This document shows, in pieces, positions 2,713 to 64,000 of a DNA stretch of 64,000 bases. A program made the translations under genes and the position numbers. The DNA is from Edaphochlamys debaryana (lineage: Eukaryota > Chlorophyta > Chlorophyceae > Chlamydomonadales): NCBI GenBank assembly GCA_016858145.1, contig JAEHOE010000185.1, positions 124,001 to 188,000 of the forward strand, written 5' to 3'. Within the stretch, counting starts at the first letter, position 1, and each line of letters begins with the position of its first letter. The notes beneath the pieces were generated by a model. The model made no database searches. It was not told where the DNA came from and saw only the letters and a list, made by a program, of their open reading frames with translations.

Positions 2713-3140
2713 CGGCCCGCGGCCCGCTGCCGGATGTTGTGTACCCGGTCACTTGCGGCGCCAGGGGAGGGTTGGTGGCAGTATGTTAAGTGGCAACCCG
2801 GACTGAGCTTGATGTTGCTCTTTGACCTCATGCAACTCTGAAGGTCCTACCTATCGCCATTTGCACGTGTGGCCAGGGCTACAAGGTTTGAGTGGCGCTG
2901 GCCTCGCATGTCCGGAGGAACAGGGGCCTGGCCTCCGATATTAAGCTGGCGAGGTGCGCTATGGAGCGCTTGCAGTCTCCACCCAAGCCCTCAGGACACC
3001 CACACTTCCAGCGCGCAGCCTGTTGCACCGGAAGCTGTTCCCTCAGTCCATCCTGGCTGCATCCCCTTCCCTGCACTGCCAGCATGATGGCACTTCAGGA
3101 GGACTGTCGCTGAGCATGATGGCACTTCGGCTTTTCAAGT

Positions 3141-19924: not shown

Positions 19925-21217
<1,293 letters not shown>

Positions 21218-40012: not shown

Positions 40013-40725
40013 CGAGTGGGAGGCAAGCGGCACGCAATCACGGCTTTCCTCCATTTGCGCCCGCCCTCTTGGGAGCCCTTTCAGGGGCGTGGGAGGCGAG
40101 CGGCACGCAATCACGGCTTGCCTCCACTTGCGGCTGCAGGAGGCCGGGCTGCGCATGCCCTCGTGGGAGCGCTTTCTGGGGCGTGCGAGGCGAGCGGCAC
40201 GCAATCACGGCTTGCTTCCACTTGCGGCTGCAGGAGGCCGGGCTGCGCGTGCCCTCTTGGGAGCGCTTTCTAGGGCGTGGGAGGCGAGCGGCACGCAATC
40301 ACGGCTTGCCTCCACTTGCGGCTGCAGGAGGCCGGGCTGCGCATGCCCTCTTGGGAGCGCTTTCTGGGGCGTGGGAGGCAAGCGGCGAGGAATTACGGCT
40401 TGCCTCCACTTGCGGCTGCAGGAGGCCGGGCTGCGCATGCCCTCTTACTTGGGAACGCTTTCTGGGGCGTGGGAGGCAAGCGGCGAGGAATCACGGCTTG
40501 CCTCCACTTGCGGCTGCAGGAGGCCGGGCTGCACATGCCCTCTTACTTGGGAACGCTTTCTGGGGCGTGGGAGGCAAGCGGCGAGGAATCATGGCTTGCC
40601 TCCACTTGCGGCGGCAGGAGTCCGGGCTGCGCATGCCCTCTTACTTGGGAACGCTTTCTGGGGCGTGGGAGGCAAGCCGCGCGCAAAGACGGCTTTCCTC
40701 CTCTTGCGCTTGAAGGAGGCCGGGC
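40013..40725. repeat. Tandem repeat, about 94-98 bp period, 7-8 copies
   Basis: Units contain GGCTGCAGGAGGCCGGGCTG, then ATGCCCTCTTGGGAGCGC and GGGGCGTGGGAGGC. Later units carry a 4-bp insertion (TTACTTGGGAACGC). Since 94 is not a multiple of three, long plus-strand ORFs cycle through the frames and are not evidence of coding. Confidence 0.9.
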
Positions 40726-41400
40726 TGCGCGTGTCCCTTGCTGCCTCGGACGCTCTCCGCCTCAGCCCCTCACCGCTTTCCCGCCTCCGACCCCGCCCCT
40801 CTGCCTGAGCCCCTTCTGGCCTCGCCGCCTTGCCGCCTCACCGCCTCGCCACACGGCCACACCGCCTCCCCGCCTCGCCGCTTCCTCGCTGAAACAAACT
40901 CTTACGCCGGCTATGGGTTGGTCCCGACCGAAGGGAGGGCTTTAAGCCATTGAAGACCTATGCATGGGCTCAACGCCCCAGGACGGATGCATGGCTGAGT
41001 GCGTGCCAGCGAAACCAGACCACATGCATGGCCACCCACGTCCCCTCCCGACGCGTGCCTACGCCTGCCTACGTTATTGGCGGACACAGACTACTCATGC
41101 ATGCCCATGTCGTGATCGCAACGACACCTGACCTTTCACACCTCTAATGCGCAGAACAGCGTATGAGTTTCATGAAGGAAATGAAAGACCTCATTGGCAA
41201 TGTGGACTACACTTTTGCCTCTCCGTCATTGTGTCAGGACCCTGGCTTCTGGTTTCCACCACGTTCTTGCGCCGCACGCACCGTAACAGCAACGCCTGTC
41301 GGCTGTTCTTATTGTCAACCCCGGCAACCGAGAATGCTCACGCCTACTTTTGAGTGCGTGGCTGATGATCAACCGGCACGCATGGCTCGGACCTTCCGGA
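40726..41400. other. Spacer
   Basis: C/T-rich at first (CCTCGCCGCCT runs, 40740-40890), then ordinary sequence with visibly lower GC. No supported gene. Confidence 0.3.
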
Positions 41401-46081: not shown

Positions 46082-47735
46082 CCTCCCAGGCGCTCAAAGT
46101 CCAGACCCGAAAGCAGACCGAGTGGTACCCGGCTGGCCGCGGCGTCCAGTAAGTAACTGGCCCGAACACCGGGCTCGGAGCTGTGACAGTCCGGTCGGAG
46201 AAAAATGCCGGGAAAGAGGGCTGAGAGCCATGCAACGCACGCAGGGGCCCGCAAGGGATGGACCGCATGGAGGCAGCATGGCAGCATACTGGTAGGCAGG
46301 CAGCAGGTGGCGCAAGCACTTAGGGCAGGAAGTCCCTACGGCCTCCGCCCCCCCGACCACCACAGCGGCCTGTATCTTAGCACTGGCTATCCAATGCGCC
46401 CGGTCCCGCCCATCCGCGTGCACTGTGGTTCAAGCGCGAGCGGCGGACGCAGAAGTTTGCTCGCACCGTCCAGCGCCACGACATTATGGTAGGGCTCGAT
46501 GCTGTGTATCCAGCGGTGTGAAAGTGGTGACCGGCAAGCGTGGGCACCGGACCCGGGCATGTCAACCGCATTCCCGCTGCTCGGCCCCAGCTCTTGACCG
46601 CGAGTAGTCCCTGCAGTCCTTCTTTGAGCACAGGTGCTAGAGCTGCGGGCGGGCACGCAGCTGGCGCGCTTTGCTGGTACGGCTTGCATGGGGTGCGCGG
46701 TTTAAGGTGCTGGGGGGGTCCGCTGCGGAGTCCTGTTCTGGGCTCTACACACCAAGCGTACCCCTAAACTCACCTGCTCTCAATCACAATAGTGCCCTCC
46801 TATGCAGCGCTGTGCCCCGTTTTGAAGGGCACCAAGCGCATGCCGGACGACCCCCGCACTGCGTTGACCCCGAGCCCCTCTCGGAACCGCATTGCCGGCG
46901 GCCTGACGTGAGCAGCAGGAGCCGCTAAGCACAACGTAAGGCCCCAGCGCTTGTTGCGCAGTCCACCAGTGAGCTTGGACGTCGGGTGTAGCGGGGCTGT
47001 AGCAGGCTGTGCGCGGCGCTAGCACGCGGCGACCGGACACCGGGGGTTCGGAGGGACTAAGTTGCCGGAGTGAAGGTAATGCCGGCCCCCGTGCCGTAGG
47101 CGCCTGGCCTTCGCACCTTGATGGCTAGCTACGTAGGCGCTACTCCACTGGCATCAGCAGCATAGCGCACCAGTCCGCGGCAGCCCAGTTCGCCACGTCG
47201 CGCCGAGCGGCCATGCCGATGCCCCACGTGCGCCCCGACAAGAATCAACAAGTCGGCTTCACTCTAGCTTGCTTCTCCCGTCTGGCTATACAGGTCACTT
47301 TCTGGGCTGCTGCACTACTGGGTGAGCACACGTCTCTGCTCTTCCTGATGTCGGTGTCGAGCTGCGGAATGGCGGTGTAAATCAGACAAGGCCAGCTGGA
47401 AGTCTACGACCGTGCTCCGTAGGTATGTAACATGTCAGCATATACGCCAAATAAGCGTCACATCAACCGCCATAGCCTGGCCGGCATGCCCGCGTGACAC
47501 GCGACGTACCGACCTCCGACACCCCTCCGCCCCCGCGCTCACATTGCTCGCTCAGTGCGCAGCTCCTCACCCTCCTTTCGCCAGCCCGAAAACAATAACA
47601 TAAATGTAAATAAATGTATGCATTGTAGCTCTTGCGTTTCGCGCGCATGTCCCTGCTGTGTGACATGATGCTAATGCCCTCAGTTCCCACAACACGCGCC
47701 CTCCGCCTGCCCCCGCTCCCATCCCCCAGTACTCC

Positions 47736-49847
47736 TCAGCGGAACCGCTTGTGCGGCCAGTCGCCCTCCGCAGCGATGATGGACGGCAGCGTCTTGGAGA
47801 ACAGCCGCGCCACTGCCGTCTGGACCCACTCCGCAGTGATCTCCCGGCGGAAGATGTGCTGCAGCTGAGTCAGGTAGGTCTCGATGGGGGTGTTTCGGGG
47901 CAGCAGGTTCCGCATGATCCACTCGTCCATCTTGCCACACACGCATGCGTGACTCTGCTCAATCACGCAGTGCATGTCTGGGCTGTAGGTAGGGAGCCGG
48001 GTGTGGTCGGCTAGGGTAATGCCCAGCGCAGCCCACTTCGGGTCCGTCAGCTTGGCATGCGTGCTCGGATTGTCCCAAGAGTACCGCGGCCGTGCAGCGC
48101 TCCCCGTCAGGCCCGCCCTCGCAGCCCGGTCGTCCCACTCGCTCTTGGTGCTCTTGATGATGTCGAAGAACTCCTCCTCCGTGCCCCCCTTTGCAGGGCG
48201 CTTGGTGCGCTTGGTCTGCAATGGGGACAAGGCGGCGGCGGCGTGGCGGGCACAACAAGCGGTCATTCCCGGCCTGGGTGGCCAGCCGGTACTGCTCGCG
48301 GCGCAATGCTGGGGCTACGCTGAATTCGAGGGGAGTCGATGCTCTAGAGCCAAGGTTCTGGGAGCTTGAGTGCGGCTGTGTGGGGCAGAAGAGCTGTCAC
48401 GCCGTCATGAAGAGCATCAGGACCAGCCCTGACCCGGACGCCCCAACATGCTTCACGTGTCCTTTCCACGACGCACACAGCAGGCGCCCGGCTAGCAAGT
48501 TAGCCCGGCATGCATTTGCTATGCTATGCCGGATAGCAGCTGCAGTGCAGCAGGGCACTGGCGCAAGGTGCACAGTCGTGCCGGAGTTCCGGCCGGCACG
48601 TGGGCTGGCCCCCTTCGACTTCGCTCTGTTGGAGTGGCGGGTGCTAGTGGAGGTGGACGGCTCGCAGCACACGGTGGGGGCGCATAACGGCAAGAGTGCC
48701 GAGGAGCAAGCGCAGCGGGATAGGGAGAAGGAGGGAAGGGCTCTGGCGCTAGGGTACCATGTGGTTCGCTTGCACTGGCTGGCGGAGGCCTCGGGGCAGT
48801 GGGACGATGCGGTGTGGGGTGCGCTCCGCTCGGGCGGCAAGGCCCCCACGGTCTTCCTGACCCTCTCCTAACCAACCCGCCCTGTCCATTGCTTACTTTG
48901 TATGCTGTGTGGTGCTTGTAGTGGATGCCCTTGGTCCCGGTGATCCAGTACATGCCGATAGCGCCGAAGCGGTAGTTGATGGCTGAGTAGAACTTGACGA
49001 CGCCCACCGGGCGGCCGCTCAGCCGGGGGTCGTGCTTTGTGATGCGGGGCCGTCGCCCTCCGGTGGTCCAGAACTTGTAGCTCGAAGGCCGTATCCAGTA
49101 GGTCTTGGCGTCCAGCCAGATGACGTTCATGAGCCAGGCCGTGATCCAGGTTAACCAGAAGGCGGCCGGGCATGCCTTGGTGGGGGCGAGCGTAGCTCTC
49201 CCCGCACCCCGCACGTACACGCTCCGCCACTTGTAGTGCTTGAGCTTGACCCGGCGCACGCCCAGCTGCAGCCACCGCACGGAGGCGCACACACGCAGCC
49301 GCTTGTTGACGGCTGAGAGAGGCCTCCGGAACTCCACCACGCCCAGCTTGGCCATAGTGGGGCTGCGCTTCTTCATGCGCACCCACAGCGAGCGCCTCGC
49401 ACAGCGCCGCCTGGAGCACAGGTCCACGGCGAAGGGGGCGTGCAGGAACTCCCGCCTGCTCGCGTATGGTGTGTCGCTGCAGCCAGCGTCAGTGAGATCA
49501 GCCAGAGCAGCATCCACGTCTGCTGTTGTCAGCTTGGGCGGCCGGCCAGAGCGTGGGGCGTCAGGGAAGGGTTGGAAGGTGGCGTTGAGGAATGTGCCCA
49601 CGTGTCTGACAATAAACTTGCCAGGTACCGTGATCCACTGTGCGGGCTGGGGGCCAGGCTGCGCCTTCTGTAGCTCCCGGAAGCGTTTGATGGCGTCGGG
49701 GAGCCACTTCTGCTGCCGCCCGAGAGCCAGCGCAGCCAGGCACAGGTCAGCACCTAGTGCTCCACACGCAGCTGCAACAGCAAGCTTCCGTGCATGCTGC
49801 TTGGCCTCGTAGGAGCATGGCTCCTGGGGGTGCCGGGAGTGCGTCAT
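47736..49847 (-). CDS. Tc1/mariner-like DDE transposase, unit 1 (two exons)
   Basis: Exons 49847-48897 and 48215-47736 join in phase 0 to 476 residues. The start is the ATG at 49847, just after a CCCCCAGG acceptor-like stretch, so a 5'UTR intron is possible. The N-terminus has a helix-turn-helix-like region with SGRPPKLT (residues about 100-107), as in Tc1/mariner DNA-binding domains. Catalytic positions: D246 in VIWLDAKTYW, D365 in YSWDNPSTHA and E403 in LPTYSPDMHCVIEQ, giving DD37E spacing. Supporting motifs are VVKFYSAINYRFG and WITGTKG. It would cut and paste its element in the nucleus. No terminal inverted repeats were found around it. The reading frame happens to stay open through the intron, so an unspliced 473-aa form also exists on paper, but it would lack two catalytic residues. 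Confidence 0.85.
48216..48896 (-). other. 681-bp phase-0 intron of the transposase, filled by an antisense nuclease ORF (unit 1)
   Basis: Minus-strand donor AAA|GTAAGC at 48896 and acceptor CATTGCAG| ending at 48216. The intron falls between the first and second catalytic acidic residues of the transposase. The antisense ORF (48221-48871) occupies all but 5 nt at the intron's 3' end and 25 nt at its 5' end. The same intron occurs in every array unit. Confidence 0.8.
48221..48871 (+). CDS. Zinc-ribbon plus PD-(D/E)XK (Vsr/DUF559-like) nuclease, unit 1, antisense within the transposase intron
   Basis: 216 codons from the ATG at 48221; an upstream in-frame TTG at 48191 would reach into transposase exon 2 and is less likely. 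N-terminal basic patch (TRRRRRGG). A putative zinc-binding module has C51, C53, C59, C77 and C80 (ELECGC, SC, CFTCPFHD). The nuclease core reads FDFALLEWRVLVEVDGSQH with D133, E144, D146 and H150, then RDREKEGRALALGYHVVRLHW. This matches the D...ExDG..H...RD..R/K...L...G..V.R pattern of DUF559/Vsr-type endonucleases. It would cleave or nick DNA; the target is unknown. PD-(D/E)XK homing endonucleases are known from other introns, but a homing role here is inference. Confidence 0.75.
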   Translation: MGTRRRRRGGHNKRSFPAWVASRYCSRRNAGATLNSRGVDALEPRFWELECGCVGQKSCHAVMKSIRTSPDPDAPTCFTCPFHDAHSRRPASKLARHAFAMLCRIAAAVQQGTGARCTVVPEFRPARGLAPFDFALLEWRVLVEVDGSQHTVGAHNGKSAEEQAQRDREKEGRALALGYHVVRLHWLAEASGQWDDAVWGALRSGGKAPTVFLTLS

Positions 49848-51508
49848 CCTGGGGGAAAAGGGGGGCAGCGGGGGAAAGGAAGGGGGATGAGGGGTGGGGG
49901 TTGGACGACAAGGAAGCAGATTCGGCAAAGCGAAACACACACGCCCGGTGGTAGTTGGTAGTTAGGTGGTTGGCGGTTGGTTGGCGGGTGGGCCGTTATG
50001 TCAACGGTGGGTGGCACGCTGGGTCCATTCCTCTCCCAGCCTCCAGATCGACCCCACGAAACCCGCCGTTTGCACCGGGAAACCTCCTTCACTTAGGGCA
50101 GGAAGTCCCTACGGCCTCCGCCCCCCCGACCACCACAGCGGCCTGTATCTTAGCACTGGCTATCCAATGCGCCCGGTCCCGCCCATCCGCGTGCACTGTG
50201 GTTCAAGCGCGAGCGGCGGACGCAGAAGTTTGCTCGCACCGTCCAGCGCCACGACATTATGGTAGGGCTCGATGCTGTGTATCCAGCGGTGTGAAAGTGG
50301 TGACCGGCAAGCGTGGGCACCGGACCCGGGCATGTCAACCGCATTCCCGCTGCTCGGCCCCAGCTCTTGACCGCGAGTAGTCCCTGCAGTCCTTCTTTGA
50401 GCACAGGTGCTAGAGCTGCGGGCGGGCACGCAGCTGGCGCGCTTTGCTGGTACGGCTTGCATGGGGTGCGCGGTTTAAGGTGCTGGGGGGGTCCGCTGCG
50501 GAGTCCTGTTCTGGGCTCTACACACCAAGCGTACCCCTAAACTCACCTGCTCTCAATCACAATAGTGCCCTCCTATGCAGCGCTGTGCCCCGTTTTGAAG
50601 GGCACCAAGCGCATGCCGGACGACCCCCGCACTGCGTTGACCCCGAGCCCCTCTCGGAACCGCATTGCCGGCGGCCTGACGTGAGCAGCAGGAGCCGCTA
50701 AGCACAACGTAAGGCCCCAGCGCTTGTTGCGCAGTCCACCAGTGAGCTTGGACGTCGGGTGTAGCGGGGCTGTAGCAGGCTGTGCGCGGCGCTAGCACGC
50801 GGCGACCGGACACCGGGGGTTCGGAGGGACTAAGTTGCCGGAGTGAAGGTAATGCCGGCCCCCGTGCCGTAGGCGCCTGGCCTTCGCACCTTGATGGCTA
50901 GCTACGTAGGCGCTACTCCACTGGCATCAGCAGCATAGCGCACCAGTCCGCGGCAGCCCAGTTCGCCACGTCGCGCCGAGCGGCCATGCCGATGCCCCAC
51001 GTGCGCCCCGACAAGAATCAACAAGTCGGCTTCACTCTAGCTTGCTTCTCCCGTCTGGCTATACAGGTCACTTTCTGGGCTGCTGCACTACTGGGTGAGC
51101 ACACGTCTCTGCTCTTCCTGATGTCGGTGTCGAGCTGCGGAATGGCGGTGTAAATCAGACAAGGCCAGCTGGAAGTCTACGACCGTGCTCCGTAGGTATG
51201 TAACATGTCAGCATATACGCCAAATAAGCGTCACATCAACCGCCATAGCCTGGCCGGCATGCCCGCGTGACACGCGACGTACCGACCTCCGACACCCCTC
51301 CGCCCCCGCGCTCACATTGCTCGCTCAGTGCGCAGCTCCTCACCCTCCTTTCGCCAGCCCGAAAACAATAACATAAATGTAAATAAATGTATGCATTGTA
51401 GCTCTTGCGTTTCGCGCGCATGTCCCTGCTGTGTGACATGATGCTAATGCCCTCAGTTCCCACAACACGCGCCCTCCGCCTGCCCCCGCTCCCATCCCCC
51501 AGTACTCC

Positions 51509-53620
51509 TCAGCGGAACCGCTTGTGCGGCCAGTCGCCCTCCGCAGCGATGATGGACGGCAGCGTCTTGGAGAACAGCCGCGCCACTGCCGTCTGGACCC
51601 ACTCCGCAGTGATCTCCCGGCGGAAGATGTGCTGCAGCTGAGTCAGGTAGGTCTCGATGGGGGTGTTTCGGGGCAGCAGGTTCCGCATGATCCACTCGTC
51701 CATCTTGCCACACACGCATGCGTGACTCTGCTCAATCACGCAGTGCATGTCTGGGCTGTAGGTAGGGAGCCGGGTGTGGTCGGCTAGGGTAATGCCCAGC
51801 GCAGCCCACTTCGGGTCCGTCAGCTTGGCATGCGTGCTCGGATTGTCCCAAGAGTACCGCGGCCGTGCAGCGCTCCCCGTCAGGCCCGCCCTCGCAGCCC
51901 GGTCGTCCCACTCGCTCTTGGTGCTCTTGATGATGTCGAAGAACTCCTCCTCCGTGCCCCCCTTTGCAGGGCGCTTGGTGCGCTTGGTCTGCAATGGGGA
52001 CAAGGCGGCGGCGGCGTGGCGGGCACAACAAGCGGTCATTCCCGGCCTGGGTGGCCAGCCGGTACTGCTCGCGGCGCAATGCTGGGGCTACGCTGAATTC
52101 GAGGGGAGTCGATGCTCTAGAGCCAAGGTTCTGGGAGCTTGAGTGCGGCTGTGTGGGGCAGAAGAGCTGTCACGCCGTCATGAAGAGCATCAGGACCAGC
52201 CCTGACCCGGACGCCCCAACATGCTTCACGTGTCCTTTCCACGACGCACACAGCAGGCGCCCGGCTAGCAAGTTAGCCCGGCATGCATTTGCTATGCTAT
52301 GCCGGATAGCAGCTGCAGTGCAGCAGGGCACTGGCGCAAGGTGCACAGTCGTGCCGGAGTTCCGGCCGGCACGTGGGCTGGCCCCCTTCGACTTCGCTCT
52401 GTTGGAGTGGCGGGTGCTAGTGGAGGTGGACGGCTCGCAGCACACGGTGGGGGCGCATAACGGCAAGAGTGCCGAGGAGCAAGCGCAGCGGGATAGGGAG
52501 AAGGAGGGAAGGGCTCTGGCGCTAGGGTACCATGTGGTTCGCTTGCACTGGCTGGCGGAGGCCTCGGGGCAGTGGGACGATGCGGTGTGGGGTGCGCTCC
52601 GCTCGGGCGGCAAGGCCCCCACGGTCTTCCTGACCCTCTCCTAACCAACCCGCCCTGTCCATTGCTTACTTTGTATGCTGTGTGGTGCTTGTAGTGGATG
52701 CCCTTGGTCCCGGTGATCCAGTACATGCCGATAGCGCCGAAGCGGTAGTTGATGGCTGAGTAGAACTTGACGACGCCCACCGGGCGGCCGCTCAGCCGGG
52801 GGTCGTGCTTTGTGATGCGGGGCCGTCGCCCTCCGGTGGTCCAGAACTTGTAGCTCGAAGGCCGTATCCAGTAGGTCTTGGCGTCCAGCCAGATGACGTT
52901 CATGAGCCAGGCCGTGATCCAGGTTAACCAGAAGGCGGCCGGGCATGCCTTGGTGGGGGCGAGCGTAGCTCTCCCCGCACCCCGCACGTACACGCTCCGC
53001 CACTTGTAGTGCTTGAGCTTGACCCGGCGCACGCCCAGCTGCAGCCACCGCACGGAGGCGCACACACGCAGCCGCTTGTTGACGGCTGAGAGAGGCCTCC
53101 GGAACTCCACCACGCCCAGCTTGGCCATAGTGGGGCTGCGCTTCTTCATGCGCACCCACAGCGAGCGCCTCGCACAGCGCCGCCTGGAGCACAGGTCCAC
53201 GGCGAAGGGGGCGTGCAGGAACTCCCGCCTGCTCGCGTATGGTGTGTCGCTGCAGCCAGCGTCAGTGAGATCAGCCAGAGCAGCATCCACGTCTGCTGTT
53301 GTCAGCTTGGGCGGCCGGCCAGAGCGTGGGGCGTCAGGGAAGGGTTGGAAGGTGGCGTTGAGGAATGTGCCCACGTGTCTGACAATAAACTTGCCAGGTA
53401 CCGTGATCCACTGTGCGGGCTGGGGGCCAGGCTGCGCCTTCTGTAGCTCCCGGAAGCGTTTGATGGCGTCGGGGAGCCACTTCTGCTGCCGCCCGAGAGC
53501 CAGCGCAGCCAGGCACAGGTCAGCACCTAGTGCTCCACACGCAGCTGCAACAGCAAGCTTCCGTGCATGCTGCTTGGCCTCGTAGGAGCATGGCTCCTGG
53601 GGGTGCCGGGAGTGCGTCAT
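51509..53620 (-). CDS. Tc1/mariner-like DDE transposase, unit 2
   Basis: Exons 53620-52670 and 51988-51509; identical to the unit 1 copy, including D246, D365 and E403. The upstream 242 bp is also identical, so any promoter is duplicated with it. Confidence 0.85.
51994..52644 (+). CDS. Intron-nested antisense PD-(D/E)XK nuclease, unit 2
   Basis: Identical to unit 1 copy; nested in intron 51989-52669 of the unit 2 transposase. Confidence 0.75.
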   Translation: MGTRRRRRGGHNKRSFPAWVASRYCSRRNAGATLNSRGVDALEPRFWELECGCVGQKSCHAVMKSIRTSPDPDAPTCFTCPFHDAHSRRPASKLARHAFAMLCRIAAAVQQGTGARCTVVPEFRPARGLAPFDFALLEWRVLVEVDGSQHTVGAHNGKSAEEQAQRDREKEGRALALGYHVVRLHWLAEASGQWDDAVWGALRSGGKAPTVFLTLS

Positions 53621-55281
53621 CCTGGGGGAAAAGGGGGGCAGCGGGGGAAAGGAAGGGGGATGAGGGGTGGGGGTTGGACGACAAGGAAGCAGATTCGGCA
53701 AAGCGAAACACACACGCCCGGTGGTAGTTGGTAGTTAGGTGGTTGGCGGTTGGTTGGCGGGTGGGCCGTTATGTCAACGGTGGGTGGCACGCTGGGTCCA
53801 TTCCTCTCCCAGCCTCCAGATCGACCCCACGAAACCCGCCGTTTGCACCGGGAAACCTCCTTCACTTAGGGCAGGAAGTCCCTACGGCCTCCGCCCCCCC
53901 GACCACCACAGCGGCCTGTATCTTAGCACTGGCTATCCAATGCGCCCGGTCCCGCCCATCCGCGTGCACTGTGGTTCAAGCGCGAGCGGCGGACGCAGAA
54001 GTTTGCTCGCACCGTCCAGCGCCACGACATTATGGTAGGGCTCGATGCTGTGTATCCAGCGGTGTGAAAGTGGTGACCGGCAAGCGTGGGCACCGGACCC
54101 GGGCATGTCAACCGCATTCCCGCTGCTCGGCCCCAGCTCTTGACCGCGAGTAGTCCCTGCAGTCCTTCTTTGAGCACAGGTGCTAGAGCTGCGGGCGGGC
54201 ACGCAGCTGGCGCGCTTTGCTGGTACGGCTTGCATGGGGTGCGCGGTTTAAGGTGCTGGGGGGGTCCGCTGCGGAGTCCTGTTCTGGGCTCTACACACCA
54301 AGCGTACCCCTAAACTCACCTGCTCTCAATCACAATAGTGCCCTCCTATGCAGCGCTGTGCCCCGTTTTGAAGGGCACCAAGCGCATGCCGGACGACCCC
54401 CGCACTGCGTTGACCCCGAGCCCCTCTCGGAACCGCATTGCCGGCGGCCTGACGTGAGCAGCAGGAGCCGCTAAGCACAACGTAAGGCCCCAGCGCTTGT
54501 TGCGCAGTCCACCAGTGAGCTTGGACGTCGGGTGTAGCGGGGCTGTAGCAGGCTGTGCGCGGCGCTAGCACGCGGCGACCGGACACCGGGGGTTCGGAGG
54601 GACTAAGTTGCCGGAGTGAAGGTAATGCCGGCCCCCGTGCCGTAGGCGCCTGGCCTTCGCACCTTGATGGCTAGCTACGTAGGCGCTACTCCACTGGCAT
54701 CAGCAGCATAGCGCACCAGTCCGCGGCAGCCCAGTTCGCCACGTCGCGCCGAGCGGCCATGCCGATGCCCCACGTGCGCCCCGACAAGAATCAACAAGTC
54801 GGCTTCACTCTAGCTTGCTTCTCCCGTCTGGCTATACAGGTCACTTTCTGGGCTGCTGCACTACTGGGTGAGCACACGTCTCTGCTCTTCCTGATGTCGG
54901 TGTCGAGCTGCGGAATGGCGGTGTAAATCAGACAAGGCCAGCTGGAAGTCTACGACCGTGCTCCGTAGGTATGTAACATGTCAGCATATACGCCAAATAA
55001 GCGTCACATCAACCGCCATAGCCTGGCCGGCATGCCCGCGTGACACGCGACGTACCGACCTCCGACACCCCTCCGCCCCCGCGCTCACATTGCTCGCTCA
55101 GTGCGCAGCTCCTCACCCTCCTTTCGCCAGCCCGAAAACAATAACATAAATGTAAATAAATGTATGCATTGTAGCTCTTGCGTTTCGCGCGCATGTCCCT
55201 GCTGTGTGACATGATGCTAATGCCCTCAGTTCCCACAACACGCGCCCTCCGCCTGCCCCCGCTCCCATCCCCCAGTACTCC

Positions 55282-57393
55282 TCAGCGGAACCGCTTGTGC
55301 GGCCAGTCGCCCTCCGCAGCGATGATGGACGGCAGCGTCTTGGAGAACAGCCGCGCCACTGCCGTCTGGACCCACTCCGCAGTGATCTCCCGGCGGAAGA
55401 TGTGCTGCAGCTGAGTCAGGTAGGTCTCGATGGGGGTGTTTCGGGGCAGCAGGTTCCGCATGATCCACTCGTCCATCTTGCCACACACGCATGCGTGACT
55501 CTGCTCAATCACGCAGTGCATGTCTGGGCTGTAGGTAGGGAGCCGGGTGTGGTCGGCTAGGGTAATGCCCAGCGCAGCCCACTTCGGGTCCGTCAGCTTG
55601 GCATGCGTGCTCGGATTGTCCCAAGAGTACCGCGGCCGTGCAGCGCTCCCCGTCAGGCCCGCCCTCGCAGCCCGGTCGTCCCACTCGCTCTTGGTGCTCT
55701 TGATGATGTCGAAGAACTCCTCCTCCGTGCCCCCCTTTGCAGGGCGCTTGGTGCGCTTGGTCTGCAATGGGGACAAGGCGGCGGCGGCGTGGCGGGCACA
55801 ACAAGCGGTCATTCCCGGCCTGGGTGGCCAGCCGGTACTGCTCGCGGCGCAATGCTGGGGCTACGCTGAATTCGAGGGGAGTCGATGCTCTAGAGCCAAG
55901 GTTCTGGGAGCTTGAGTGCGGCTGTGTGGGGCAGAAGAGCTGTCACGCCGTCATGAAGAGCATCAGGACCAGCCCTGACCCGGACGCCCCAACATGCTTC
56001 ACGTGTCCTTTCCACGACGCACACAGCAGGCGCCCGGCTAGCAAGTTAGCCCGGCATGCATTTGCTATGCTATGCCGGATAGCAGCTGCAGTGCAGCAGG
56101 GCACTGGCGCAAGGTGCACAGTCGTGCCGGAGTTCCGGCCGGCACGTGGGCTGGCCCCCTTCGACTTCGCTCTGTTGGAGTGGCGGGTGCTAGTGGAGGT
56201 GGACGGCTCGCAGCACACGGTGGGGGCGCATAACGGCAAGAGTGCCGAGGAGCAAGCGCAGCGGGATAGGGAGAAGGAGGGAAGGGCTCTGGCGCTAGGG
56301 TACCATGTGGTTCGCTTGCACTGGCTGGCGGAGGCCTCGGGGCAGTGGGACGATGCGGTGTGGGGTGCGCTCCGCTCGGGCGGCAAGGCCCCCACGGTCT
56401 TCCTGACCCTCTCCTAACCAACCCGCCCTGTCCATTGCTTACTTTGTATGCTGTGTGGTGCTTGTAGTGGATGCCCTTGGTCCCGGTGATCCAGTACATG
56501 CCGATAGCGCCGAAGCGGTAGTTGATGGCTGAGTAGAACTTGACGACGCCCACCGGGCGGCCGCTCAGCCGGGGGTCGTGCTTTGTGATGCGGGGCCGTC
56601 GCCCTCCGGTGGTCCAGAACTTGTAGCTCGAAGGCCGTATCCAGTAGGTCTTGGCGTCCAGCCAGATGACGTTCATGAGCCAGGCCGTGATCCAGGTTAA
56701 CCAGAAGGCGGCCGGGCATGCCTTGGTGGGGGCGAGCGTAGCTCTCCCCGCACCCCGCACGTACACGCTCCGCCACTTGTAGTGCTTGAGCTTGACCCGG
56801 CGCACGCCCAGCTGCAGCCACCGCACGGAGGCGCACACACGCAGCCGCTTGTTGACGGCTGAGAGAGGCCTCCGGAACTCCACCACGCCCAGCTTGGCCA
56901 TAGTGGGGCTGCGCTTCTTCATGCGCACCCACAGCGAGCGCCTCGCACAGCGCCGCCTGGAGCACAGGTCCACGGCGAAGGGGGCGTGCAGGAACTCCCG
57001 CCTGCTCGCGTATGGTGTGTCGCTGCAGCCAGCGTCAGTGAGATCAGCCAGAGCAGCATCCACGTCTGCTGTTGTCAGCTTGGGCGGCCGGCCAGAGCGT
57101 GGGGCGTCAGGGAAGGGTTGGAAGGTGGCGTTGAGGAATGTGCCCACGTGTCTGACAATAAACTTGCCAGGTACCGTGATCCACTGTGCGGGCTGGGGGC
57201 CAGGCTGCGCCTTCTGTAGCTCCCGGAAGCGTTTGATGGCGTCGGGGAGCCACTTCTGCTGCCGCCCGAGAGCCAGCGCAGCCAGGCACAGGTCAGCACC
57301 TAGTGCTCCACACGCAGCTGCAACAGCAAGCTTCCGTGCATGCTGCTTGGCCTCGTAGGAGCATGGCTCCTGGGGGTGCCGGGAGTGCGTCAT
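55282..57393 (-). CDS. Tc1/mariner-like DDE transposase, unit 3
   Basis: Exons 57393-56443 and 55761-55282; identical to unit 1 copy. Confidence 0.85.
55767..56417 (+). CDS. Intron-nested antisense PD-(D/E)XK nuclease, unit 3
   Basis: Identical to unit 1 copy; nested in intron 55762-56442. Confidence 0.75.
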   Translation: MGTRRRRRGGHNKRSFPAWVASRYCSRRNAGATLNSRGVDALEPRFWELECGCVGQKSCHAVMKSIRTSPDPDAPTCFTCPFHDAHSRRPASKLARHAFAMLCRIAAAVQQGTGARCTVVPEFRPARGLAPFDFALLEWRVLVEVDGSQHTVGAHNGKSAEEQAQRDREKEGRALALGYHVVRLHWLAEASGQWDDAVWGALRSGGKAPTVFLTLS

Positions 57394-59054
57394 CCTGGGG
57401 GAAAAGGGGGGCAGCGGGGGAAAGGAAGGGGGATGAGGGGTGGGGGTTGGACGACAAGGAAGCAGATTCGGCAAAGCGAAACACACACGCCCGGTGGTAG
57501 TTGGTAGTTAGGTGGTTGGCGGTTGGTTGGCGGGTGGGCCGTTATGTCAACGGTGGGTGGCACGCTGGGTCCATTCCTCTCCCAGCCTCCAGATCGACCC
57601 CACGAAACCCGCCGTTTGCACCGGGAAACCTCCTTCACTTAGGGCAGGAAGTCCCTACGGCCTCCGCCCCCCCGACCACCACAGCGGCCTGTATCTTAGC
57701 ACTGGCTATCCAATGCGCCCGGTCCCGCCCATCCGCGTGCACTGTGGTTCAAGCGCGAGCGGCGGACGCAGAAGTTTGCTCGCACCGTCCAGCGCCACGA
57801 CATTATGGTAGGGCTCGATGCTGTGTATCCAGCGGTGTGAAAGTGGTGACCGGCAAGCGTGGGCACCGGACCCGGGCATGTCAACCGCATTCCCGCTGCT
57901 CGGCCCCAGCTCTTGACCGCGAGTAGTCCCTGCAGTCCTTCTTTGAGCACAGGTGCTAGAGCTGCGGGCGGGCACGCAGCTGGCGCGCTTTGCTGGTACG
58001 GCTTGCATGGGGTGCGCGGTTTAAGGTGCTGGGGGGGTCCGCTGCGGAGTCCTGTTCTGGGCTCTACACACCAAGCGTACCCCTAAACTCACCTGCTCTC
58101 AATCACAATAGTGCCCTCCTATGCAGCGCTGTGCCCCGTTTTGAAGGGCACCAAGCGCATGCCGGACGACCCCCGCACTGCGTTGACCCCGAGCCCCTCT
58201 CGGAACCGCATTGCCGGCGGCCTGACGTGAGCAGCAGGAGCCGCTAAGCACAACGTAAGGCCCCAGCGCTTGTTGCGCAGTCCACCAGTGAGCTTGGACG
58301 TCGGGTGTAGCGGGGCTGTAGCAGGCTGTGCGCGGCGCTAGCACGCGGCGACCGGACACCGGGGGTTCGGAGGGACTAAGTTGCCGGAGTGAAGGTAATG
58401 CCGGCCCCCGTGCCGTAGGCGCCTGGCCTTCGCACCTTGATGGCTAGCTACGTAGGCGCTACTCCACTGGCATCAGCAGCATAGCGCACCAGTCCGCGGC
58501 AGCCCAGTTCGCCACGTCGCGCCGAGCGGCCATGCCGATGCCCCACGTGCGCCCCGACAAGAATCAACAAGTCGGCTTCACTCTAGCTTGCTTCTCCCGT
58601 CTGGCTATACAGGTCACTTTCTGGGCTGCTGCACTACTGGGTGAGCACACGTCTCTGCTCTTCCTGATGTCGGTGTCGAGCTGCGGAATGGCGGTGTAAA
58701 TCAGACAAGGCCAGCTGGAAGTCTACGACCGTGCTCCGTAGGTATGTAACATGTCAGCATATACGCCAAATAAGCGTCACATCAACCGCCATAGCCTGGC
58801 CGGCATGCCCGCGTGACACGCGACGTACCGACCTCCGACACCCCTCCGCCCCCGCGCTCACATTGCTCGCTCAGTGCGCAGCTCCTCACCCTCCTTTCGC
58901 CAGCCCGAAAACAATAACATAAATGTAAATAAATGTATGCATTGTAGCTCTTGCGTTTCGCGCGCATGTCCCTGCTGTGTGACATGATGCTAATGCCCTC
59001 AGTTCCCACAACACGCGCCCTCCGCCTGCCCCCGCTCCCATCCCCCAGTACTCC

Positions 59055-61166
59055 TCAGCGGAACCGCTTGTGCGGCCAGTCGCCCTCCGCAGCGATGATG
59101 GACGGCAGCGTCTTGGAGAACAGCCGCGCCACTGCCGTCTGGACCCACTCCGCAGTGATCTCCCGGCGGAAGATGTGCTGCAGCTGAGTCAGGTAGGTCT
59201 CGATGGGGGTGTTTCGGGGCAGCAGGTTCCGCATGATCCACTCGTCCATCTTGCCACACACGCATGCGTGACTCTGCTCAATCACGCAGTGCATGTCTGG
59301 GCTGTAGGTAGGGAGCCGGGTGTGGTCGGCTAGGGTAATGCCCAGCGCAGCCCACTTCGGGTCCGTCAGCTTGGCATGCGTGCTCGGATTGTCCCAAGAG
59401 TACCGCGGCCGTGCAGCGCTCCCCGTCAGGCCCGCCCTCGCAGCCCGGTCGTCCCACTCGCTCTTGGTGCTCTTGATGATGTCGAAGAACTCCTCCTCCG
59501 TGCCCCCCTTTGCAGGGCGCTTGGTGCGCTTGGTCTGCAATGGGGACAAGGCGGCGGCGGCGTGGCGGGCACAACAAGCGGTCATTCCCGGCCTGGGTGG
59601 CCAGCCGGTACTGCTCGCGGCGCAATGCTGGGGCTACGCTGAATTCGAGGGGAGTCGATGCTCTAGAGCCAAGGTTCTGGGAGCTTGAGTGCGGCTGTGT
59701 GGGGCAGAAGAGCTGTCACGCCGTCATGAAGAGCATCAGGACCAGCCCTGACCCGGACGCCCCAACATGCTTCACGTGTCCTTTCCACGACGCACACAGC
59801 AGGCGCCCGGCTAGCAAGTTAGCCCGGCATGCATTTGCTATGCTATGCCGGATAGCAGCTGCAGTGCAGCAGGGCACTGGCGCAAGGTGCACAGTCGTGC
59901 CGGAGTTCCGGCCGGCACGTGGGCTGGCCCCCTTCGACTTCGCTCTGTTGGAGTGGCGGGTGCTAGTGGAGGTGGACGGCTCGCAGCACACGGTGGGGGC
60001 GCATAACGGCAAGAGTGCCGAGGAGCAAGCGCAGCGGGATAGGGAGAAGGAGGGAAGGGCTCTGGCGCTAGGGTACCATGTGGTTCGCTTGCACTGGCTG
60101 GCGGAGGCCTCGGGGCAGTGGGACGATGCGGTGTGGGGTGCGCTCCGCTCGGGCGGCAAGGCCCCCACGGTCTTCCTGACCCTCTCCTAACCAACCCGCC
60201 CTGTCCATTGCTTACTTTGTATGCTGTGTGGTGCTTGTAGTGGATGCCCTTGGTCCCGGTGATCCAGTACATGCCGATAGCGCCGAAGCGGTAGTTGATG
60301 GCTGAGTAGAACTTGACGACGCCCACCGGGCGGCCGCTCAGCCGGGGGTCGTGCTTTGTGATGCGGGGCCGTCGCCCTCCGGTGGTCCAGAACTTGTAGC
60401 TCGAAGGCCGTATCCAGTAGGTCTTGGCGTCCAGCCAGATGACGTTCATGAGCCAGGCCGTGATCCAGGTTAACCAGAAGGCGGCCGGGCATGCCTTGGT
60501 GGGGGCGAGCGTAGCTCTCCCCGCACCCCGCACGTACACGCTCCGCCACTTGTAGTGCTTGAGCTTGACCCGGCGCACGCCCAGCTGCAGCCACCGCACG
60601 GAGGCGCACACACGCAGCCGCTTGTTGACGGCTGAGAGAGGCCTCCGGAACTCCACCACGCCCAGCTTGGCCATAGTGGGGCTGCGCTTCTTCATGCGCA
60701 CCCACAGCGAGCGCCTCGCACAGCGCCGCCTGGAGCACAGGTCCACGGCGAAGGGGGCGTGCAGGAACTCCCGCCTGCTCGCGTATGGTGTGTCGCTGCA
60801 GCCAGCGTCAGTGAGATCAGCCAGAGCAGCATCCACGTCTGCTGTTGTCAGCTTGGGCGGCCGGCCAGAGCGTGGGGCGTCAGGGAAGGGTTGGAAGGTG
60901 GCGTTGAGGAATGTGCCCACGTGTCTGACAATAAACTTGCCAGGTACCGTGATCCACTGTGCGGGCTGGGGGCCAGGCTGCGCCTTCTGTAGCTCCCGGA
61001 AGCGTTTGATGGCGTCGGGGAGCCACTTCTGCTGCCGCCCGAGAGCCAGCGCAGCCAGGCACAGGTCAGCACCTAGTGCTCCACACGCAGCTGCAACAGC
61101 AAGCTTCCGTGCATGCTGCTTGGCCTCGTAGGAGCATGGCTCCTGGGGGTGCCGGGAGTGCGTCAT
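59055..61166 (-). CDS. Tc1/mariner-like DDE transposase, unit 4
   Basis: Exons 61166-60216 and 59534-59055; identical to unit 1 copy. Confidence 0.85.
59540..60190 (+). CDS. Intron-nested antisense PD-(D/E)XK nuclease, unit 4
   Basis: Identical to unit 1 copy; nested in intron 59535-60215. Confidence 0.75.
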   Translation: MGTRRRRRGGHNKRSFPAWVASRYCSRRNAGATLNSRGVDALEPRFWELECGCVGQKSCHAVMKSIRTSPDPDAPTCFTCPFHDAHSRRPASKLARHAFAMLCRIAAAVQQGTGARCTVVPEFRPARGLAPFDFALLEWRVLVEVDGSQHTVGAHNGKSAEEQAQRDREKEGRALALGYHVVRLHWLAEASGQWDDAVWGALRSGGKAPTVFLTLS

Positions 61167-62827
61167 CCTGGGGGAAAAGGGGGGCAGCGGGGGAAAGGAA
61201 GGGGGATGAGGGGTGGGGGTTGGACGACAAGGAAGCAGATTCGGCAAAGCGAAACACACACGCCCGGTGGTAGTTGGTAGTTAGGTGGTTGGCGGTTGGT
61301 TGGCGGGTGGGCCGTTATGTCAACGGTGGGTGGCACGCTGGGTCCATTCCTCTCCCAGCCTCCAGATCGACCCCACGAAACCCGCCGTTTGCACCGGGAA
61401 ACCTCCTTCACTTAGGGCAGGAAGTCCCTACGGCCTCCGCCCCCCCGACCACCACAGCGGCCTGTATCTTAGCACTGGCTATCCAATGCGCCCGGTCCCG
61501 CCCATCCGCGTGCACTGTGGTTCAAGCGCGAGCGGCGGACGCAGAAGTTTGCTCGCACCGTCCAGCGCCACGACATTATGGTAGGGCTCGATGCTGTGTA
61601 TCCAGCGGTGTGAAAGTGGTGACCGGCAAGCGTGGGCACCGGACCCGGGCATGTCAACCGCATTCCCGCTGCTCGGCCCCAGCTCTTGACCGCGAGTAGT
61701 CCCTGCAGTCCTTCTTTGAGCACAGGTGCTAGAGCTGCGGGCGGGCACGCAGCTGGCGCGCTTTGCTGGTACGGCTTGCATGGGGTGCGCGGTTTAAGGT
61801 GCTGGGGGGGTCCGCTGCGGAGTCCTGTTCTGGGCTCTACACACCAAGCGTACCCCTAAACTCACCTGCTCTCAATCACAATAGTGCCCTCCTATGCAGC
61901 GCTGTGCCCCGTTTTGAAGGGCACCAAGCGCATGCCGGACGACCCCCGCACTGCGTTGACCCCGAGCCCCTCTCGGAACCGCATTGCCGGCGGCCTGACG
62001 TGAGCAGCAGGAGCCGCTAAGCACAACGTAAGGCCCCAGCGCTTGTTGCGCAGTCCACCAGTGAGCTTGGACGTCGGGTGTAGCGGGGCTGTAGCAGGCT
62101 GTGCGCGGCGCTAGCACGCGGCGACCGGACACCGGGGGTTCGGAGGGACTAAGTTGCCGGAGTGAAGGTAATGCCGGCCCCCGTGCCGTAGGCGCCTGGC
62201 CTTCGCACCTTGATGGCTAGCTACGTAGGCGCTACTCCACTGGCATCAGCAGCATAGCGCACCAGTCCGCGGCAGCCCAGTTCGCCACGTCGCGCCGAGC
62301 GGCCATGCCGATGCCCCACGTGCGCCCCGACAAGAATCAACAAGTCGGCTTCACTCTAGCTTGCTTCTCCCGTCTGGCTATACAGGTCACTTTCTGGGCT
62401 GCTGCACTACTGGGTGAGCACACGTCTCTGCTCTTCCTGATGTCGGTGTCGAGCTGCGGAATGGCGGTGTAAATCAGACAAGGCCAGCTGGAAGTCTACG
62501 ACCGTGCTCCGTAGGTATGTAACATGTCAGCATATACGCCAAATAAGCGTCACATCAACCGCCATAGCCTGGCCGGCATGCCCGCGTGACACGCGACGTA
62601 CCGACCTCCGACACCCCTCCGCCCCCGCGCTCACATTGCTCGCTCAGTGCGCAGCTCCTCACCCTCCTTTCGCCAGCCCGAAAACAATAACATAAATGTA
62701 AATAAATGTATGCATTGTAGCTCTTGCGTTTCGCGCGCATGTCCCTGCTGTGTGACATGATGCTAATGCCCTCAGTTCCCACAACACGCGCCCTCCGCCT
62801 GCCCCCGCTCCCATCCCCCAGTACTCC

Positions 62828-64000
62828 TCAGCGGAACCGCTTGTGCGGCCAGTCGCCCTCCGCAGCGATGATGGACGGCAGCGTCTTGGAGAACAGCCGC
62901 GCCACTGCCGTCTGGACCCACTCCGCAGTGATCTCCCGGCGGAAGATGTGCTGCAGCTGAGTCAGGTAGGTCTCGATGGGGGTGTTTCGGGGCAGCAGGT
63001 TCCGCATGATCCACTCGTCCATCTTGCCACACACGCATGCGTGACTCTGCTCAATCACGCAGTGCATGTCTGGGCTGTAGGTAGGGAGCCGGGTGTGGTC
63101 GGCTAGGGTAATGCCCAGCGCAGCCCACTTCGGGTCCGTCAGCTTGGCATGCGTGCTCGGATTGTCCCAAGAGTACCGCGGCCGTGCAGCGCTCCCCGTC
63201 AGGCCCGCCCTCGCAGCCCGGTCGTCCCACTCGCTCTTGGTGCTCTTGATGATGTCGAAGAACTCCTCCTCCGTGCCCCCCTTTGCAGGGCGCTTGGTGC
63301 GCTTGGTCTGCAATGGGGACAAGGCGGCGGCGGCGTGGCGGGCACAACAAGCGGTCATTCCCGGCCTGGGTGGCCAGCCGGTACTGCTCGCGGCGCAATG
63401 CTGGGGCTACGCTGAATTCGAGGGGAGTCGATGCTCTAGAGCCAAGGTTCTGGGAGCTTGAGTGCGGCTGTGTGGGGCAGAAGAGCTGTCACGCCGTCAT
63501 GAAGAGCATCAGGACCAGCCCTGACCCGGACGCCCCAACATGCTTCACGTGTCCTTTCCACGACGCACACAGCAGGCGCCCGGCTAGCAAGTTAGCCCGG
63601 CATGCATTTGCTATGCTATGCCGGATAGCAGCTGCAGTGCAGCAGGGCACTGGCGCAAGGTGCACAGTCGTGCCGGAGTTCCGGCCGGCACGTGGGCTGG
63701 CCCCCTTCGACTTCGCTCTGTTGGAGTGGCGGGTGCTAGTGGAGGTGGACGGCTCGCAGCACACGGTGGGGGCGCATAACGGCAAGAGTGCCGAGGAGCA
63801 AGCGCAGCGGGATAGGGAGAAGGAGGGAAGGGCTCTGGCGCTAGGGTACCATGTGGTTCGCTTGCACTGGCTGGCGGAGGCCTCGGGGCAGTGGGACGAT
63901 GCGGTGTGGGGTGCGCTCCGCTCGGGCGGCAAGGCCCCCACGGTCTTCCTGACCCTCTCCTAACCAACCCGCCCTGTCCATTGCTTACTTTGTATGCTGT
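62828..64000 (-). CDS. Tc1/mariner-like DDE transposase, unit 5 (5' part outside window)
   Basis: Exon 2 (63307-62828) with D365 and E403 is complete. Only the last 12 nt of exon 1 (63989-64000) is inside the window. Confidence 0.8.
63313..63963 (+). CDS. Intron-nested antisense PD-(D/E)XK nuclease, unit 5
   Basis: Complete and identical to unit 1 copy; nested in intron 63308-63988. Confidence 0.75.
   Translation: MGTRRRRRGGHNKRSFPAWVASRYCSRRNAGATLNSRGVDALEPRFWELECGCVGQKSCHAVMKSIRTSPDPDAPTCFTCPFHDAHSRRPASKLARHAFAMLCRIAAAVQQGTGARCTVVPEFRPARGLAPFDFALLEWRVLVEVDGSQHTVGAHNGKSAEEQAQRDREKEGRALALGYHVVRLHWLAEASGQWDDAVWGALRSGGKAPTVFLTLS

Follow-up and report, generated by a model that had tools for sequence, protein, structure and literature searches.

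An antisense nuclease gene nested in a predicted transposase intron of Edaphochlamys debaryana and its possible homing-type role

Introduction

Why would a DNA transposon carry a nuclease gene antisense within an intron of its own transposase gene? The question is raised by a stretch of 64,000 nucleotides from the green alga Edaphochlamys debaryana (GenBank assembly GCA_016858145.1, contig JAEHOE010000185.1, positions 124,001 to 188,000 of the forward strand), here called the window, in which a two-exon DDE transposase gene has an intron almost filled by an antisense open reading frame (ORF) for a putative nuclease. Self-splicing introns and inteins, which take themselves out of the host product, are the setting in which homing-type nucleases are best known. 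We propose, with a probability of about one half, that the window holds a transposon composed of an internal part between two direct repeats (R), with a co-inherited homing-type endonuclease in a spliced intron that helps copies of the element persist through break-and-copy repair. The anatomy of the nested nuclease is well supported; its function is an inference.

Results

An antisense reading frame between two catalytic residues

The window transposase has 476 amino acids (aa) and is encoded by two exons on the minus strand of 47736-49847. Between them, and between the first and second catalytic Asp, lies an intron with the minus-strand boundaries AAA/GTAAGC ... TTGCAG/ACC, in phase 0, and 651 of its 681 nt are the plus-strand nuclease ORF. 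The first-pass annotation had described the intron at 48216..48896, with this phase, these ends, these lengths and this position relative to the catalytic residues, and each particular proved correct. A self-splicing (group I or II) intron was not detected, since Rfam, searched over 46300-50300 at E up to 1, gave no match. Judging from its boundaries, the intron is presumably removed by the spliceosome, and the nuclease would be expressed from the strand opposite to the transposase.

An ORF of this length could arise by chance, as 27 out of 2000 dinucleotide-shuffled versions of the intron contained a plus-strand frame of at least 216 codons; at this G+C, length taken alone is weak evidence against chance and does not exclude a chance ORF. 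What excludes it is homology, because the layout recurs, with a homologous opposite-strand ORF, in all six families examined.

Recurrence of the layout across families and beyond the genome

The genome sequence searched comprised 141.9 Mb in 502 contigs, the published assembly being described as 142.14 Mb in 527 contigs from PacBio reads (PMC8226300). Our genome searches scored the best candidates only (89 of 401, 150 of 202 and 150 of 198), so families may have been missed; the search with the nuclease listed 122 matches. For the comparison of loci we took 24 of 82, one or more chosen per family, the others being array-unit duplicates, edges of arrays, controls and viral hits. In 14 of the 24 the nuclease is found antisense between both transposase halves, and in two (L031, L032) it adjoins the second half, the first half being missing. 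One locus (L040, on C118) has the nuclease with no transposase in the fetched 4.5 kb, and seven have transposase sequence without the nuclease. In L040 the same-family nuclease, at 1998-2645, has an open frame and stands beside an 877-bp tandem repeat.

Each of the six families (window, B, J, H, I and K) has a GT...AG intron, of 681, 694, 695, 862, 871 or 897 nt, placed after the same GTxGxxY segment, which is among the best-conserved stretches of the transposase. The exons joined across it can be aligned in every family, with D246, WDN and SPDMHxVIE in register. Compared pairwise, the transposases are 32-78% identical and the nucleases 25-68%. Five of the six loci used have an open frame of 217-297 codons on the opposite strand; the sixth, a J copy (L043), is frame-broken at 174, and another J copy (L046) is open. 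The antisense nesting and the place of the intron, both taken from the window alone in the first-pass annotation, are thus confirmed in every family, whereas its statement that this is the only intron holds for the window family and fails for B and J, which have an additional small one. As a separate observation, the nuclease region of an H-type copy (L078, on C65) is broken at about 1746-3125 by an insert of about 1.38 kb with a 6-bp overlap, which may be a target duplication.

A database search with the transposase profile returned two matches only, both E. debaryana proteins. One of these, P0007, reads like a family H exon. The public gene model HYH03_018411 fuses family H exon 1 directly to exon 2 (HEYM/VKTKRKQQQ), skipping the nuclease, and the residues at its end do not agree with our reading of exon 2 in family H; the gene models of this alga are described as made with BRAKER and stranded RNA-seq (PMC8226300). 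Outside the E. debaryana genome, a contig of 3935 bp encodes P0002, a nuclease relative with 47% identity. Its N-terminal extension, decoded antisense, gives the start of transposase exon 2, and none of 300 shuffled peptides scored as high; because of this, a second organism probably has the antisense nesting too. A distant relative is also encoded in 7 of 89 stretches of viral contigs.

A nuclease of homing-endonuclease type

The catalytic domain of the nuclease has a fold like that of Vsr, the EDxHD homing endonuclease I-Bth0305I and a DUF559-type protein, in agreement with the nuclease core that had been read from the window. D133, E144, H150 and D167 are invariant across 11 relatives. The N-terminal part appears zinc-ribbon-like, as had been suggested, with the pattern CxC...CxxH (CxC at 51/53, then C80 and H83, the latter two nearly invariant). 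Among the 11 members, seven match the DUF559 profile (best 5.6e-5), the window nuclease itself reaching 18.8 bits with a cut-off of 20.6, and nine weakly match a phage "homing endonuclease" family profile. NCBIfam gave one weak DUF559 match, in one of the 11 members, and a library of defence systems gave weak single-member matches only, to DpdF and a restriction enzyme. Solved structures, searched by sequence, gave no match for the single nuclease and a best E of 0.19 for the nuclease profile.

Selection on the nuclease and descent with the transposase

For the nucleases of families B and J (L034-L046, 223 codons), dN is 0.24 and dS 1.10, a dN/dS of 0.22, and the differences at the three codon positions number 50, 44 and 101 (third-position excess, P 8e-8). 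This comparison shows purifying selection on the nuclease in the B-J pair, and the dN/dS check proposed with the original prediction thus favours a conserved ORF in one family pair. In H-I, window-H, window-B and window-I the third position likewise tends to an excess (P 0.001 to 0.015), at synonymous distances that are saturating.

These data bear on whether the opposite-strand transcript, rather than the protein, is what matters, so that it damps transposase expression and the nuclease is a passenger of little importance. The antisense position is kept in all six families, and several nuclease copies are frame-broken while the exon frames are open, as such regulation would allow. Against it stand protein-level selection in B-J, catalytic residues invariant across the 11 relatives and a nuclease without a transposase in the 4.5 kb fetched on C118, and we regard it as improbable.

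Over the six families, nuclease and transposase distances correlate (r 0.88, a value that 17 of 720 permutations attained), and both proteins pair B with J and put H, I and K together. Such a correlation is not what independent spread of the nuclease between alleles or hosts would give. The synonymous distance between B and J is 1.10 for the nuclease vs 0.33, 0.37 and 0.47 for three transposase stretches, and because the nuclease value is the higher, a recent transfer of the intron is disfavoured. The nuclease appears to have been inherited together with the transposon.

A selfish nuclease that cuts intronless transposase genes and copies its intron into them, with the transposon as mere host, would account for a nuclease whose fold and profile matches are of the homing type, for an intron barely larger than the nuclease ORF, and for its site just after GTxGxxY. 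Set against this are the co-divergence with the transposase, a nuclease synonymous distance exceeding that of the flanking exons, which is the opposite of what recent transfer would leave, and the lack of an intact intronless transposase gene at any of the seven fetched loci without the nuclease; the M-like places C63, C331 and C201 lie outside this count. Family M (C49, C120, C126; units of about 3.28 kb) and the C60 family might be taken for intronless alleles, but each has lost the intron along with the last part of exon 1 and the first part of exon 2 in a deletion that changes the frame, which rules this out. At C71, an M-type copy keeps exon 2, with no first half in the fetched stretch, C203 has exon 1 only, and C59 and C9 hold fragments. 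Co-divergence leaves room for old homing; we reject recent transfer between families because of the co-divergence and the synonymous distances, and the nuclease does not seem to be moving between transposases now. Homing of the intron and a parasitic nuclease, both raised in the first-pass annotation, are thus not supported as recent events, and we consider homing at the expense of a passive transposon unlikely.

An element of R-internal-R type

The same kind of element is found single, as solo R and as long arrays. A complete single element on C33 (L079, 1976-7078) has two R of 804 bp around an internal part of 3495 bp, which is the transposase and nuclease region. Its R pair, with 802 bases in common, is in direct orientation, starts with CACTGCC and ends with GTAGTG, the ends being inverted, and TGC stands on both outer flanks. 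A solo R on C319 (L082) has TTA on both sides; it resembles a solo long terminal repeat (LTR), but comes from a DDE transposon. The direct repeats are thus about 0.8 kb, and the candidate target duplications, from these two insertions only, are 3 bp and not TA. Termini are CACTG...GTAGTG in families J and B, flanked on either side by TGC or TTA, and CACTT...GAGTG in the window family.

Between those units of the B and J arrays that we looked at (L034, L043), R is absent, and the units meet at a CT-CAG-AG junction; it looks as though R was cut out with CAG left behind, whereas the window family keeps R. R-like modules occur in many other arrays, and many further tandem arrays with transposase fragments or R modules were noticed on C59, C177, C230 (26-69 kb), C1, C427 and C331, with periods of about 1.9-3.3 kb.

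To which superfamily does the transposase belong? It has the DDE/D triad with the DN...H and SPD..IE-like motifs of Tc1/mariner (IS630), and the first-pass annotation had placed it there. The window transposase has no Pfam match; hmmscan of six transposases at E up to 10 found no DDE_3, with DUF5651 and HTH_32 in one member each, and hhalign against the DDE_3 transposases of the genome gave E 9e-4 at a probability of 22.7 over 53 columns. A search of solved structures with the transposase profile found no match, and the AlphaFold model of exon 1 has a mean pLDDT of 51.7. The missing DDE_3 profile match, the CACT...AGTG ends and the candidate 3-bp duplications argue against membership in Tc1/mariner and leave a motif resemblance. 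The CACTA (EnSpm) superfamily has termini CACTA/G and a 2-3-bp target duplication. Families J and B agree with it in termini and duplication length; among the Pfam matches of the six transposases at E up to 10 there is no CACTA-type family, a search in which HMMER misses remote relatives. We file the element under neither superfamily, because its ends and duplications are CACTA-like but its catalytic motif is DDE_3-like.

A long ORF lies downstream of DDE_3 transposases in the genome (L072 on C163, 2-1654 minus; L070 on C115, 2103-3386). The L072 ORF contains GIDPG, reminiscent of Fanzor/TnpB, with no support from Pfam and PDB searches. None of 23 DDE_3 places has a nuclease match nearby.

The array in the window

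In the window the element forms a head-to-tail array (Table 1), which the first-pass annotation had missed. Blastn of one unit finds five places at 100% and a 184-bp start, and the gene pair recurs every 3773 bp up to the window end, with zero differences in the gene block among four units and part of a fifth. Each unit is preceded by one of five R copies of 756 bp, which start with CACTTAGGGC and finish with GCCGGAGTG, the inverted ends being imperfect. For the whole unit no convincing terminal inverted repeats were found; the R modules alone have them. Array matches on C185 (197332 bp) reach to within at most 40 bases of the contig end, with an R match at C185:196731-197292, and further window-family copies lie on C234, C255 and C280. 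The left edge at C185 reads AAG/CACT and the right edge at C280 AGTG/AAG, so that these could be the two ends of one array divided by an assembly gap; the edges on C234 and C255 have no shared flanking repeat of this kind.

Table 1. Coordinates of the array and its repeated features in the window
Feature	Position	Strand	Remark
Head-to-tail array of identical 3773-bp units	46317..64000		continues on contig C185
R module copy 1	46317..47072		756 bp; left edge of array
R module copy 2	50090..50845		identical
R module copy 3	53863..54618		identical
R module copy 4	57636..58391		identical
R module copy 5	61409..62164		identical
Transposase exon 1, unit 1	48897..49847	-	317 aa; first catalytic Asp, D246
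Transposase exon 2, unit 1	47736..48215	-	159 aa + stop; second Asp and Glu
Transposase intron, unit 1	48216..48896	-	phase 0, GT-AG; predicted splicing
Antisense nuclease ORF, unit 1	48221..48871	+	216 aa + stop
Intron, unit 2	51989..52669	-	gene block same as unit 1
Antisense nuclease, unit 2	51994..52644	+	gene block same as unit 1
Intron, unit 3	55762..56442	-	gene block same as unit 1
Antisense nuclease, unit 3	55767..56417	+	gene block same as unit 1
Intron, unit 4	59535..60215	-	gene block same as unit 1
Antisense nuclease, unit 4	59540..60190	+	gene block same as unit 1
Intron, unit 5	63308..63988	-	exon 1 of unit 5 extends beyond window end
Antisense nuclease, unit 5	63313..63963	+	gene block same as unit 1

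Arrays of this kind invite the reading that they are decayed, unspliced satellite repeats in which both reading frames are relics. Most matches do lie in tandem arrays, several at contig ends, and frame-broken copies and deletion derivatives are present. A dead satellite is at odds with two frames open in the window family and a gene block identical from unit to unit, with a layout kept in six families, and with the 3-bp repeats flanking both the complete single element and the solo R; we give it only a slim chance.

Elsewhere in the window are an array of the hexamer TCGGGG (19925-21217; 1.3 kb, about 217 copies) and a 98-bp tandem repeat (40066-40738).

Discussion

A homing-type accessory role fits the fold, conservation and co-descent of the nuclease. 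In the mechanism that we propose, the spliceosome would remove the intron, so that the antisense gene leaves the transposase intact, and the nuclease would be read from the opposite strand. It would cut element-related DNA that lacks the insert, such as a site or copy left by excision, and repair from an intact copy would restore, spread or expand the element, tandem arrays included. Travelling with the transposon, the nuclease would gain by cutting copies or sites without the insert.

Several observations weigh against this proposal. Within families the nuclease copies look nearly unconstrained (L034-L039, dN 0.038 and dS 0.046; L046-L047, dN 0.16 and dS 0.23), the J copies L043 and C33 are frame-broken, and the family B nuclease has no ATG ahead of the conserved start. 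The comparison with Vsr, DUF559 and EDxHD proteins suggested in the first-pass annotation is divided in its outcome: the fold bears it out, and with Foldseek the best match of the nuclease, 1cw0 at 5.5e-3, fell short of the E limit of 0.001. Family M is tandem and near-identical though without the nuclease, and the nuclease is thus not needed in cis for array formation.

It is also conceivable, though we hold it doubtful, that the element represents a previously undescribed group of eukaryotic DNA transposons, with an IS630-like DDE core, CACT termini, 3-bp duplications, LTR-like direct repeats and transposition coupled to an intron-borne antisense homing-type endonuclease. Our search of the open-licence literature brought up no account of a transposase whose spliceosomal intron holds an antisense nuclease, which is not proof of absence in print, and no mention of such a nested nuclease in that part of it that deals with transposons of E. 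debaryana. If such a group exists, a homing-type nuclease would be resident in a spliceosomal intron, and cut-and-paste transposition would be linked with break-induced copying and satellite growth. If the spliceosome serves for removal, a selfish nuclease could be sheltered in any intron. The transposon has kept its nuclease while both proteins diverged to about one third identity, and it offers a natural system for how transposons turn into satellite arrays.

One close parallel is the L2066 group I intron in the nuclear rDNA of Didymium squamulosum, whose antisense homing endonuclease I-DsqI is described as cutting intron-lacking DNA (PMC9548176). In both, an intron of nuclear DNA bears an antisense endonuclease gene; L2066, however, is a self-splicing ribozyme of the rDNA and encodes a His-Cys enzyme (PMC9548176), whereas here we find GT-AG boundaries with no Rfam intron, a transposase as host and a Vsr/EDxHD-like fold. 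Mariner elements with accessory endonucleases (GIY-YIG or restriction-type) or Fanzor have been described (PMC3627910), and they share with our element a DDE transposase and a separate endonuclease in one DNA transposon. Those elements are reported to have TA duplications and to carry the extra genes in their 3' portion (PMC3627910), in contrast to the antisense position within the transposase intron and the 3-bp repeats seen here. In satellite DNA of ants, the Tc1/mariner arrays of Mboumar likewise place transposons within satellite DNA, but the tandem unit here has a second gene and R modules, and its termini are not of the Tc1/mariner type. With regard to the nuclease itself, the likeness to I-Bth0305I, Vsr and DUF559 nucleases lies in the fold of the catalytic domain and in weak profile matches. 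A review describes EDxHD enzymes as most often of phage origin (PMC3943268); unlike these, the nuclease here follows a zinc-ribbon-like module and resides in a eukaryotic transposon.
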